Shown here piece after piece: positions 26,939 to 32,591 of a stretch of DNA of 64,000 nt. The position numbers and the translations under genes were made by a program. Source of the DNA: Acidobacteriota bacterium. GTDB lineage: Bacteria > Acidobacteriota > Blastocatellia > UBA7656. The first letter of the stretch is position 1. Every line of letters starts with the position of its first letter. The notes beneath the pieces are model-generated. The model saw nothing but the letters and a program-made list of their open reading frames with translations, ran no database searches and had not been told where the DNA came from. The stretch covers positions 1 to 64,000 of the forward strand of contig JBBPIG010000013.1 of the NCBI GenBank assembly GCA_038040445.1, in the 5' to 3' direction.

Positions 26939-27883
26939 ATGACACGATCATCATCGCTTGCGCTCCCAATCATGGCTATCTTTTTGCTTGCGGTAGGCGC
27001 CGCATTCGCACAAAAGCCCACGACTAACCCGACAGCGCCGCAGCAGCGCGACGACAAGATCGGCGTGCTGGAAGTGCGGCTCCCAATCTCGGCTAAGCAA
27101 GACAAGAAGTTTCTGCCCGGTTTGACTGTGAACAACTTCGAAGTCTATGAAGACGGAAAGCGCCAGAAGATCGAGAAATTCGTCTCACCCAGCCAACTGC
27201 CGCTCAGCATCGCCCTCCTTATCGACACAAGCAACAGCGTCAAGCTCAAGCTGCCGTTCGAGAAGGAGGCGGGCGAGGACTTCGTTGCGACGGTGACCAC
27301 ATATCGCAGGAGGGATAAGGTCTTGATGGCGTCGTTTGATTCGGCAGTCGAGCTGCATCAGGATTTCACCGACAATCAGGAGCTGCTCATTCGCGCTCTG
27401 AGGAAACTCAAAGCGGGCGGCTATACAAAGCTCTTCGACGGCGTCTATCGCATCATCGAAGAGAAGATGGCTAACCTTCCAGACGCCGAGGCTCGCCGAA
27501 TCATCGTAATACTGTCGGACGGCGAAGACACCGCCAGCGAGCACACGTTGAGGGACGCGATCGAGATGGCCCAACGCTACGATGTGACCATCTTCGGCAT
27601 CAGCACAAAAAACTTCAAAGGCATCTCTTCAGGAATGGTCGAAAACGCTGACGACAAAGAGCTGCGCAGACTGTGCGAGGAGACTGGAGGGCAGGTAGTC
27701 CTCCCGTCGCAGAAGGCTGAGCTGTTCCGCGCGTTCACCCAGGTCGCGAAAGATCTGAGACAAGAGTACGTCCTCTTTTACACCCCGACCAATCAGGCCA
27801 AGGCAGGCAAGAAACGCGAGATCAAGGTCAAACTGATTGGCGCCGACGCGCGTCTGTATCACAAGCAGGGATACGTCTACTGA
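26939..27883 (+). CDS. Secreted VWFA-domain protein 1
   Basis: 314 residues with an N-terminal signal peptide (hydrophobic 'LPIMAIFLLAVGAAFAQ'). A short N-domain with 'LTVNNFEVYEDGKRQKIEKF' is followed by a von Willebrand A domain. The MIDAS-like metal site is 'LLIDTSNSVKLKL', with Asp-Gly in 'ILSDGEDTASE'. This matches the family called VWFA-related Acidobacterial domain. First of three tandem paralogues. Probably a periplasmic or secreted adhesion or assembly protein. Its ligand is unknown. Confidence 0.92.
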   Translation: MTRSSSLALPIMAIFLLAVGAAFAQKPTTNPTAPQQRDDKIGVLEVRLPISAKQDKKFLPGLTVNNFEVYEDGKRQKIEKFVSPSQLPLSIALLIDTSNSVKLKLPFEKEAGEDFVATVTTYRRRDKVLMASFDSAVELHQDFTDNQELLIRALRKLKAGGYTKLFDGVYRIIEEKMANLPDAEARRIIVILSDGEDTASEHTLRDAIEMAQRYDVTIFGISTKNFKGISSGMVENADDKELRRLCEETGGQVVLPSQKAELFRAFTQVAKDLRQEYVLFYTPTNQAKAGKKREIKVKLIGADARLYHKQGYVY

Positions 27884-27907
27884 GAATCGCGGATTGAGGA
27901 TAGATAT

Positions 27908-28987
27908 ATGTCATCCATGAAAGTCGTCACCGCTGTGATCGCCCTGTCGGTTCTCGACTGCACGAGCTTTGCGCAAAGACCGAAACCTGCGCCTCAACCT
28001 CCCGCGCGGAACTCTCAAAGCGGGCAGACAACTCGACAAGACCAGAAGCCACAAGACAAAAACAAAGACGATGACATAGCCTCGAGCGACGAAGCAGTGC
28101 GCCTTGGCACGGATCTGGTCAACGTCTTGTTCACCGCCCTCGATCGCAACAACCGCGTCATCAGCGACATTCGACAGGACGAGATCACCATCCTGGAGGA
28201 CGGCCGCCCTCAGCAGATCTTCACCTTCAAGCGCGAAACCACTCTTCCGATCAACATTGCCATTCTGATGGATCTTTCGGGCAGCCAGGAGTACACGTTC
28301 CCGCAAGCAAAGATCGCCGCTGGAGAGTTCCTTCGTTCGATCATCCGGCCGGCCAAAGACTCCGCCGCGATACTCACGTTCCAGGAGGATGTCGAGCTGG
28401 TACAGGGGCTCTCCTCCCGCACGGAAACTCTGAACCGGGCGTTTGACGAGATTCAGTACTCTCGTCGCTTAGGCACGGCGAGCTCGCGGCATCAAGCCAC
28501 CGCGCTATACGACGCCATCTACATCACTGCCGACGAGGTGCTGGCTCACGATGAGATTCGCAGGGTTTCGGCTGACGATCAGATTACCCGGCGGGCCATC
28601 ATCCTGCTTACCGATGGAGTCGATAACGCGAGCAGCCGGAAGCTCGAAGAAGCAATCGATCGCGCGTGGCGCGCGGGCGTCATCATTTACTCAATAGGCA
28701 TCGGCGACCGCTTCAGATTCGAAGGAGTGCGCGAGGATGTGTTGAGGCGACTGGGCGATGAGACCGGTGGACGGGCGTACTTCCCACGCGGGGCCGATGA
28801 TCTACTCGACAATTTTCGTCAGATAGAAACCGAGCTACGCAGCCAGTACCTGCTGGCTTATTCACCTTCGAACTCGATGCACGACGGGCGTTTCAGACGC
28901 GTCGAAGTGCGAGTCAACGCGCGGCCTGAAGCCCGCGTAATTCATCGCCGCGGTTATTACGCGGCTACGGAAGAAGTAAAGAAATGA
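27908..28987 (+). CDS. Secreted VWFA-domain protein 2
   Basis: 359 residues: signal peptide, a Pro/Gln/Lys-rich linker (about residues 26-58), then 'VLFTALDRNNRVISDIRQDE' and the A domain with metal site 'ILMDLSGSQEYTF' and 'ILLTDGVDNASS'. The DxSGS is intact, so the metal site should function. Starts 24 bases after the first copy and overlaps the third by four bases (ATGA). Confidence 0.92.
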   Translation: MSSMKVVTAVIALSVLDCTSFAQRPKPAPQPPARNSQSGQTTRQDQKPQDKNKDDDIASSDEAVRLGTDLVNVLFTALDRNNRVISDIRQDEITILEDGRPQQIFTFKRETTLPINIAILMDLSGSQEYTFPQAKIAAGEFLRSIIRPAKDSAAILTFQEDVELVQGLSSRTETLNRAFDEIQYSRRLGTASSRHQATALYDAIYITADEVLAHDEIRRVSADDQITRRAIILLTDGVDNASSRKLEEAIDRAWRAGVIIYSIGIGDRFRFEGVREDVLRRLGDETGGRAYFPRGADDLLDNFRQIETELRSQYLLAYSPSNSMHDGRFRRVEVRVNARPEARVIHRRGYYAATEEVKK

Positions 28988-30027
28988 AGTCAGTAAGAAC
29001 ACATTTTTTAGCAGCAATAGTGTCGGCGTTGGTCCTTCTCTCTGTTTCCCTGAGCGTCGCCAATACGCAGCAGTCTGGAGCACCACCAAAGACCGGTCAA
29101 GAAAAGCAGGACAAGAACAAGAAGCCCGCGGAGGCGGAACCCAACCAGGAAGAACAGGTGCTCAAGCTGGGGACTCAGCTTGTGACCGTGCCGTTCAACG
29201 TCACCGATAAGAAGAATCGCTACATAAACGATCTCTCAAAGGATCAGATTGATGTCATGGAAGACAACAAGCCGCAGCAGGTGTTTTCGTTCGAGCGGCA
29301 GACTGACCTGCCGATCACGATTGCCATGTTGATAGACATATCCGGTAGCCAGGAGTGGACGCTGTCCGACGAGGTATCGGCAGGAAAAACATTCTTTCGC
29401 CGGGTGCTTCGACCCAAGAAAGATCTGGCAGCGGTGGTCACTTTCGAACACGAATCAGTGCTTGTGCAGGACCTGACATCGGACGTTGAGAAGCTCTATC
29501 GTGCGCTCGACGATGTGAGAATTCCCGCGCAATCGCAGGTCATGCAGCGGCCGGGCAGCACGCCTCCAATCAACAACTCAGGAGTTGGCTCGACCGCCAT
29601 GTTCGATTCGATTTATTCGGTGTCGTCGGAGCTGCTGAGGCGAGAGGCCGGCCGCCGGGTGATCATCCTGGTCACCGACGGTGCAGACACTTCGAGCAGC
29701 GTGAAGATGCGCGAGGCCATCGAGCGAACGTGGCGCAGCGAGATCATTGTCTATTCGATCGGCATCGGCGGACCGATGGGCGTCGATTCGGGAACGCTCA
29801 AGAAAATTGCGGCAGAGACAGGAGGGCGAGCCTTCTTTCCGAAGAACTCAGCCGATCTCGATACTGCGTACGCCCAGATAGACGAAGACCTGCGTTCGCA
29901 GTACATCCTTGCTTATACGCCTGCGAACCCTGCAAAAGACGGTTCGTTTCGCACGATCCAGGTCAAGATAAAGAATCACGGCGACCTAACGGTGCGGCAT
30001 CGGCGAGGGTACTTTGCGCCGAGTTAG
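28984..30027 (+). CDS. Secreted VWFA-domain protein 3
   Basis: 347 residues. Signal peptide ('FLAAIVSALVLLSVSLSVA'), Lys/Glu/Gln-rich linker, 'VPFNVTDKKNRYINDLSKDQ' and an A domain with 'MLIDISGSQEWTL' and 'ILVTDGADTSSS'. The ATG overlaps the previous stop (ATGA), indicating translational coupling. The paralogues share layout, and most differ in the linker. Confidence 0.92.
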   Translation: MKSVRTHFLAAIVSALVLLSVSLSVANTQQSGAPPKTGQEKQDKNKKPAEAEPNQEEQVLKLGTQLVTVPFNVTDKKNRYINDLSKDQIDVMEDNKPQQVFSFERQTDLPITIAMLIDISGSQEWTLSDEVSAGKTFFRRVLRPKKDLAAVVTFEHESVLVQDLTSDVEKLYRALDDVRIPAQSQVMQRPGSTPPINNSGVGSTAMFDSIYSVSSELLRREAGRRVIILVTDGADTSSSVKMREAIERTWRSEIIVYSIGIGGPMGVDSGTLKKIAAETGGRAFFPKNSADLDTAYAQIDEDLRSQYILAYTPANPAKDGSFRTIQVKIKNHGDLTVRHRRGYFAPS

Positions 30028-30148: not shown

Positions 30149-30895
30149 TTACCTGAAACCGAACAGCGCTCCCTGAACGATCCGCGTCGAGTAGGCGCTC
30201 TGATCGAGCGTCAAGAACAAACCGTCCACGTGTTCCCCGCTCTCGCGAAACTCCCGGGCATGTTCTTCTGACCAGAAGAACAACGAGTTTCGTCAGTAAG
30301 CGTGAATGATGTTAGGCTCGATGAATCTTGCCCAGTCTATCTCGGGTTCAAACACCAACGGTGTCGCGTTTTCATCGGCGGCTTGATGCCTCAGGTCGCT
30401 GCCGATGGTAAGCCGCATAGACCGGTCGCAATGCGCGCACTCTGTTTCTATTTGCACCGACAGCCGCTTTTTTCGTAAACGCCCTTCGACGAAGGGCGCC
30501 GCAATCGCGTCCTCCGCTCAAGCCGCATACAGCCGCTCACCGGTGTTGAAGACTAGGCGATGCGGCGTCTTATCAGCGGTAACCGGATAGGCCCAGCTCA
30601 CGTGGCCGTGGCTGTCCCGAACCAGAAAAAACAGTCTTTCCTCCAGCTCGGCGAGAATCTCATTTACCCGAGGCAGCGCGAGCATCAGTCTCGCCGCGAT
30701 GATCTTTGGCGCGATGGGTTTCCCTATGCGCGGGAGCTCCCTCACAACGAAGTAGCGCACCAGTTGATGCTCCCTCGACATGAAACAAAGCCTGGTCTTC
30801 ATCGCCTCCGGGACCTTGCTCAAGTGCCCTTCCCATTCGGCGCGAGGAATCGAAGTAATCTGCGGCCCTCGTCCCACTAGTATCGTTTCGCTCAT
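30149..30895 (-). CDS. MerB-like organomercurial lyase, candidate double-selenocysteine protein
   Basis: Seen: ATG 30895 has AAGGAG eight bases upstream. The frame runs 125 codons to a TGA, 74 more codons to a second TGA, then 47 to a TAA (248 residues if both are read). It has no other stop or frameshift. The N-terminal half has a winged-helix-like part ('HQLVRYFVVRELPRIGKPIA'), then 'HRLVFNTGERLYAA', TGA, 'AEDAIAAPFVEGR', then 'ETECAHCDRSMRLTI', 'NIIHAY', TGA, 'RNSLFFWSEEHAREF'. Family knowledge: MerB (R831b numbering) has 'RLYAWCALD' around Cys96/Asp99 and 'FCCHVHFFAS' around Cys159. Aligned by eye, both TGAs fall on Cys96 and Cys159, and Asp99 is kept. Inference: both are selenocysteines (U126, U201). 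No sel genes lie in the window. A decayed gene is the alternative, but stops at just these two sites make it unlikely. Confidence 0.8.
30262..30281 (-). promoter_or_regulatory. Candidate bacterial SECIS after the second TGA
   Basis: On the minus strand, 11 bases after the TGA at 30295-30293, GTTCTTCT and AGAAGAAC form a perfect 8-bp stem around the loop GGTC. The loop begins 20 bases after the TGA. The E. coli fdhF SECIS has a GGUC segment in its apical loop at similar distance. The hairpin is seen; its role is inference. Confidence 0.65.
30480..30498 (-). promoter_or_regulatory. Candidate bacterial SECIS after the first TGA
   Basis: On the minus strand, 19 bases after the TGA at 30520-30518, CGCCCTTC and GAAGGGCG form a perfect 8-bp stem with loop GTC. 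The loop starts 28 bases after the TGA, within the 16-37 base range published for bacterial SECIS, and begins with the expected G. Confidence 0.6.
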
Positions 30896-30965
30896 GGAAA
30901 TTCTCCTTCCTCCCAGGAAAATCAAACTCGCCGGCGGCGCCGGGTCGATCGAGCGCGAACCGGCC

Positions 30966-31961: not shown

Positions 31962-32294
31962 TTATGTTCGACCAATCAGCGAGTCAAGCGCAGAAAAGAT
32001 TTCTTCCAGAACCCGGTCTGATACGTTGCCCAGTCTGTCCGTGACGAACCGGCTATCCACCGCAGTGAGTTGAAAGACAAGAGCAACCGAAGGGCGGCGC
32101 AGTCCGTTCTCTCGGTCGGGTTCCACCAGAATGGTGCCGGGAAAGCGCAGAGCGTCTGGCTGGGAAGTAAGAGGGACAAGCAGCGTGGTTGGTAATGTCG
32201 AGACCGTCTGAAGAATGATCGCCGGGCGGCGTCCCGCTTGGGCGCGGCTTCCTCGCACTGGAAGCTCGACCCAATAGAGATCACCGACGGTCAC
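31962..32294 (-). CDS. MazF/PemK-family toxin
   Basis: 110 residues. 'GDLYWVELPVRGSRAQAGRRPAIIL' is the N-terminal PemK/MazF signature (listed in two parts: GDLYWVELPVRGS and AGRRPAIIL), with 'LLVPLTSQPDALRFPGTI' next. The family is a sequence-specific mRNA endoribonuclease. The start overlaps the antitoxin stop by four bases. The mazF-like and antitoxin genes form a standard antitoxin-first pair. Confidence 0.92.
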   Translation of the reverse strand: MTVGDLYWVELPVRGSRAQAGRRPAIILQTVSTLPTTLLVPLTSQPDALRFPGTILVEPDRENGLRRPSVALVFQLTAVDSRFVTDRLGNVSDRVLEEIFSALDSLIGRT

Positions 32295-32539
32295 GATTGC
32301 GAATCCTCGTCGTAGGGGAACGTCTCAAAGCTTTCAGCGCCGATTGACAGCCACGCTTGCAGCTCATCGGCTAACGCCTCGCTCATTGGCTCCTGCGTGA
32401 TTGGAACAAGCAGGATGCCGGTGCGCGTTTCGATCACGCGGACGGGGGTGTGTTCTGCTAGACCGTATCGCGATCGCACGGCAGCGGGCAGGGTGATTTT
32501 GCCGCCATCTTCAATGGTCACGTTGTCTGCCGTTTTCAT
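32291..32539 (-). CDS. AbrB/MazE-like antitoxin
   Basis: 82 residues from ATG 32539 (a longer frame to 32590 lacks support). SpoVT/AbrB swapped-hairpin DNA-binding fold: 'VTIEDGGKITLPAAVRSRYG' then 'LAEHTPVRVIETRTGI'. The acidic C-terminal tail ('GAESFETFPYDEDSQS') should bind the toxin. It likely represses the pair. Confidence 0.9.
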   Translation of the reverse strand: MKTADNVTIEDGGKITLPAAVRSRYGLAEHTPVRVIETRTGILLVPITQEPMSEALADELQAWLSIGAESFETFPYDEDSQS

Positions 32540-32591
32540 AGCGCGATTGTAGCACAGCGGATCACAGTTGTGTTGCTGCTCTATAACCAAC

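Follow-up and report, generated by a model that had tools for sequence, protein, structure and literature searches.

Methylmercury, a major toxin in the environment, is degraded by the enzyme MerB with the help of two cysteines. According to the described chemistry, Cys96, Asp99 and Cys159 bind the mercury and outside thiols remove Hg(II) (PMC4525700), and Cys96 together with Cys159 is given as the canonical MerB signature (PMC8261052). Among selenoproteins, a review from 2026 reports a single MerB-like family, SaoL (NF040728, motif CU), which was predicted from sequence and carries one selenocysteine (Sec) (PMC13188914); an earlier review also lists one MerB-like selenoprotein (PMC9312934). 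Two Sec residues per protein are known from the UxxU Prx-like proteins and from the UxxU metal-binding protein NF041115, where both Sec belong to one short motif (PMC13188914).

Here we describe a gene for a MerB-like protein that has UGA at both positions of the cysteine signature. It shares with SaoL the relationship to MerB and the sequence-based prediction as a selenoprotein, but has two Sec instead of one, and unlike in the UxxU families the two are 75 residues apart and each is followed by its own hairpin. No description of a MerB in which both catalytic positions are Sec was found in the searched literature, which excluded the primary SaoL papers (Haft and Gwadz 2023; Haft and Tolstoy 2025). 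The first-pass annotation of this DNA had been aware of no such enzyme; this holds for the double-Sec form, whereas a MerB-like selenoprotein with a single Sec, SaoL, was already known (PMC13188914). Within the searched literature, and with the primary SaoL papers left aside, the double-Sec (diselenol) MerB-like family is therefore new relative to SaoL. A family from soil, sediment and groundwater bacteria that has selenium in both places would offer a natural test of the contribution of selenium to organometal chemistry. Because standard gene callers end a frame at UGA, annotation probably truncates or misses genes of this kind, and MerB surveys based on the cysteine signature would overlook them.

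The window, i.e. the whole stretch of DNA that was analysed, comprises 64,000 nucleotides from an Acidobacteriota bacterium. The MerB-like gene is located on the minus strand at positions 30149..30895 and consists of 248 codons, with ATG at 30895 and TAA at 30151-30149. The only stops inside this frame are the TGA at codon 126 (30518..30520, minus strand), at the MerB Cys96 position and part of a U-x-x-D motif, and the TGA at codon 201 (30293..30295, minus strand), at the Cys159 position. A strong, purine-rich ribosome binding site region, GGGAGGAAGGAG, is found just upstream of the ATG (30896..30915, minus strand). The frame, its good ribosome site, both TGA codons and the TAA end had been proposed in the first-pass annotation without mention of the strand, and all were confirmed. 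Translation of the plus strand gave no MerB frame. Decoding of both UGA codons as Sec is regarded as nearly certain because of the conservation of the UGA codons, the hairpin behind each of them, the frozen codons in these hairpins, the loss of a hairpin in natural Cys variants and the presence of sel genes; this is a prediction from sequence, for which no protein-level evidence exists.

With Cys read for Sec, the Pfam family PF03243 (MerB) matches residues 106-232 with 48.5 bits (cut-off 27). The match spans both TGA codons, in agreement with the earlier remark that protein similarity continues across them. Scores with the two NCBIfam MerB equivalog models (43.1 vs a cut-off of 193 and 36.9 vs 200) and with the SaoL model NF040728 (40.5 bits vs 140) are far below the cut-offs, and sequence identity to MerB is only 16 to 21%. 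An AlphaFold2 model built with 61 natural sequences reached a pLDDT of 95.9 and a pTM of 0.91. Among solved structures it strongly matches MerB and MerB2 only, and Foldseek agrees; the best match is the mercury-bound MerB2 5c17 (Z 22.2, rmsd 2.6 over 205 residues), followed by MerB 3f2f/3f0o. Over the crystal structures 3f0o, 3f2f and 5c17 (PF03243) Z values range from 19 to 22. The MerB fold starts at about residue 21 of the model and includes the winged-helix N-terminal part of MerB; the protein differs from MerB by an N-terminal extension of approximately 20 residues and by a CxxC at 153-156. In a profile alignment to solved MerB structures (5c17, 3f2g), U126 corresponds to Cys96, Asp129 to Asp99, Cys153 to Cys117 and U201 to Cys159, which confirms a mapping formerly made by eye, with the Asp kept. 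The C-x-x-D spacing of MerB is likewise shared, while both catalytic Cys are replaced by predicted Sec; MerB2 (5c17) has Ser at position 99. Nine columns, including 126, 129 and 201, are invariant in the 61 aligned sequences. The two Sec, distant in the chain, occupy positions that meet in the active site of MerB.

SelB and tRNA-Sec are predicted to decode each UGA via its own downstream hairpin, and the product would be a full-length 248-residue protein of MerB fold with Sec at both metal-coordinating positions and the catalytic Asp kept. The following plan with two selenolates is inferred from the chemistry of MerB (PMC4525700). The two selenolates would hold a soft organometal, primarily a compound of the alkyl-mercury type, Asp129 would protonate the leaving carbon, and the metal would be passed to low-molecular-weight thiols and not to canonical MerA. 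A full-length double-Sec MerB-like lyase with MerB-type action appears to be the probable product, with some reservation; cleavage or binding and the substrate are inferred from fold and residues, and the metal or metalloid may be other than mercury. Two selenolates might, by inference, hold Hg(II) too tightly for release. The higher reactivity of the active site that the first-pass annotation proposed is likewise an inference, as is any mercury function. The substrate may be an organometal different from methylmercury, and the role may also be one in redox chemistry.

In the redox case the MerB scaffold would carry an enzyme whose two selenols form and break a bond, either with each other as a diselenide or with the CxxC at 153/156 as a selenenyl-sulfide, and reduce a peroxide, a disulfide or a metalloid, with Sec decoding unchanged. 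Such an enzyme is considered unlikely, even though Cys153 and Cys156, nearly invariant in the 61 aligned relatives, stand beside the two Sec, mer genes are absent nearby and canonical MerA is rare; redox reactions are also regarded as the field of action of most prokaryotic selenoproteins (PMC9312934). A plain redox site could do without the equivalent of Asp99, the residue of proton transfer in MerB, yet this Asp is invariant, and the fold from about residue 21 onwards is that of MerB and not of the thioredoxin type.

Unlike MerB, the double-Sec gene occurs without a mer operon; neither a mer operon nor a shared neighbourhood was found at the double-Sec loci. The only recurring upstream neighbours are genes of the MerR family (6-7 loci) and MarR genes (4-5 loci), both without conserved cysteines. 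MerR-family genes were seen just upstream at L035, L055, L060, L071, L075 and L094, and MarR genes at L052, L082, L085 and L092. Lacking conserved cysteines, the upstream MerR-family regulators do not look like mercury sensors. Canonical MerA scored above the cut-off in one of 28 genomes and HgcA was detected in four of the 28, with no clear co-occurrence in either case; none of the 28 genomes contained a gene above the SaoL cut-off. The missing mer neighbours, the low numbers for MerA and HgcA and the MerR-family regulators without conserved cysteines argue against a plain role in mercury resistance. Within the window, two genes of PemK/MazF-like and AbrB-like type, judged by eye to form a toxin-antitoxin pair, are located two genes upstream of the double-Sec gene (31962-32590, minus strand), and three tandem VWFA-like secreted proteins (26939-30027, plus strand; by eye) are encoded convergently with it.

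Selenolates have a very high affinity for Hg. This would suit a soft-metal scavenger or sensor that captures Hg(II), Cu or some other soft metal with its selenolates, without enzymatic action, and that might bind DNA through its winged-helix N-terminal part. Winged-helix and ArsR-like folds do match the N-terminal half, but at Z values of about 5, which are within noise for the structure-comparison tool, and MerB-like variants with altered residues can bind other metals (PMC8261052). As MerB has the same winged-helix part, yet is an enzyme, and as Asp129 is invariant, a non-enzymatic role is judged improbable, and the double-Sec lyase is retained as the preferred reading.

A six-frame search of 294 related genomes delivered three close relatives, 44-53% identical to the window gene, each with exactly two TGA codons that align with both TGA codons of the window gene. 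A wider scan covered one genome per bacterial and archaeal species, with peptide patterns that exclude the Sec positions; 80 loci were kept, of which 79 read through cleanly. The remaining locus, L045 (2467-3428), was omitted from the counts because its match is split in two segments (insert or frameshift). TGA is present at both columns in 76 of the 79 readable relatives (about 38-62% identical), and the other three (L028, L072 and L090) have Cys, encoded by TGC or TGT, at the first column and TGA at the second. No residue other than Sec or Cys occurs at either column in the 79, so that the first-pass annotation, which had expected support from relatives with Cys or TGA at both columns, was borne out on this point. 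A pattern of two TGA codons at exactly the same columns in nearly all relatives is far beyond chance.

In a tree with other MerB-like proteins the double-Sec family forms one side of a branch with support 98, and the three Cys forms represent three separate changes. Record labels of the relatives include Chloroflexota, Thermodesulfobacteriota, Acidobacteriota, Myxococcota, Pseudomonadota, Bacteroidota and Nitrospirota, and further Binatota, Rokuibacteriota, Hydrogenedentota, KSB1 and others. All relatives are MAGs, so any single phylum label may be wrong. The nearest relatives of the window gene belong to Chloroflexota, and no family member was found in the other searched genomes of its own genus and family, from which we infer a patchy and probably horizontal spread. 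No relatives were found on plasmids or in PADLOC.

Both UGA codons of the window gene are followed by a bSECIS-like hairpin on the minus strand. Hairpin 1 (30478..30500), GGCGCCCUUC-GUC-GAAGGGCGUU, has its loop 27 nt after UGA126 and a folding energy of -14.9 kcal/mol; hairpin 2 (30261..30282), UGUUCUUCU-GGUC-AGAAGAACA, has the GGUC loop 19 nt after UGA201 and -9.3 kcal/mol. The two satisfy the published bSECIS rules, which are a loop of 3-9 nt, a stem of 4-16 bp, G in the first two loop positions, a distance of 16-37 nt from the UGA and an MFE of -7.5 or lower (model in PMC13188914). At family level, hairpin 1 reads GCCCUU-CGUGC-AAGGGC (+23 to +39) and hairpin 2 UUCUUCU-GGUC-AGAAGAA (+15 to +32), with the pairing present in all, or in all but a few, of the 77 and 80 sequences, respectively. 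The short message has two sites of independent recoding, and the conserved hairpin differs between them. Local folding, as mean z, dips to about -1.2 directly behind the first UGA and reaches about -2.1 at the second one; over most of the flanks it stays close to 0. Taken as isolated hairpins, 47 of 77 at the first site (SECIS1), 8 of 80 at the second (SECIS2) and 28 of 800 control sites fulfil the -7.5 kcal/mol rule, so hairpin 2 is weak in many members, though its form is conserved in all. Synonymous sites in the hairpin regions are frozen: Pro is encoded by CCC in 73/73 (expected 0.27), Gly by GGG in 73/77 (expected 0.22), Ser by UCA in 76/80 (expected 0.10), Glu by GAA in 79/80 (expected 0.50) and Phe by UUC in 237/237 over three columns, whereas codon choice for these amino acids varies in other parts of these genes. 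Hairpin 1 is lost, its 3' arm being gone, in two of the three natural Cys forms. The Rfam model SECIS_1 had no match in the host genome; this result is uninformative because the control genomes gave none either. No Rfam families fitting the locus were found.

The host genome (6.7 Mb, 100% complete) contains selA (479 bits), selB, selD above the cut-off and with one in-frame TGA, and a tRNA-Sec (selC) with the anticodon TCA (UCA), as found by ARAGORN. Lack of sel genes had been named in advance as a refutation; their presence, together with the restriction of both columns to UGA and Cys in the relatives, supports the proposal that both TGA codons are read as Sec. On contig C21 of the host (G000, 106878-109344) the selD with the in-frame TGA has as its direct neighbour a MerA-like flavoprotein, which at 380 bits stays under the MerA cut-off. 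Of 59 genomes tested, 50 carry selB; the other nine comprise two that are 85 and 87% complete and seven MAGs without a stated completeness. A genome-wide tRNA-Sec model gives matches in almost all genomes, among them the controls, and is therefore unusable for co-occurrence. In-frame TGA codons could in principle also point to a pseudogene, to errors of sequencing or to a host code with TGA for Trp or some other residue. This reading has next to no standing and is refuted by the comparative data, since the same two TGAs recur in 76/79 loci of many phyla with frozen synonymous sites, TGA ends the neighbouring serS, pgeF-like and rluD-like genes, so that the code is not changed, and Trp is TGG in the double-Sec gene itself.

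The reading as a double-Sec MerB-type lyase may be extended, tentatively and with less than even confidence, to a widespread set of diselenolate organometal lyases outside the mer pathway, in which a distant Sec pair grips the metal, possibly metals or metalloids other than mercury. If this is true, Sec occurs in at least three separate MerB-type groups: one with two Sec and Asp, one with two Sec and Glu, sometimes with an AAA+ domain, and one with Cys and Sec. The second, distinct from the family described above, is represented by L117, L118, L119 and L120 (G303, G320, G322 and G300), which have UGA at both catalytic positions and a UxxE motif with Glu for Asp99; in L117 and L120 a C-terminal AAA+ ATPase-like domain follows (PF00004 in L117). 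The third (L009, L010, L012-L015, L111, L112, L115 and L116) has UGA at position 159 (e.g. DDIVFNUKTMLLF) but differs from the double-Sec family by keeping Cys at position 96, by forming a separate clade and by being closer to MerB (L009, 99 bits). This third group and the double-Sec family are both MerB-like and share the GGUC hairpin 19 nt downstream of the UGA at the Cys159 position; in the third group loop and spacing are kept and the stem is compensated, from CUGGUCAG to CCGGUCGG, with CUC/GAG changed to CUG/CAG.
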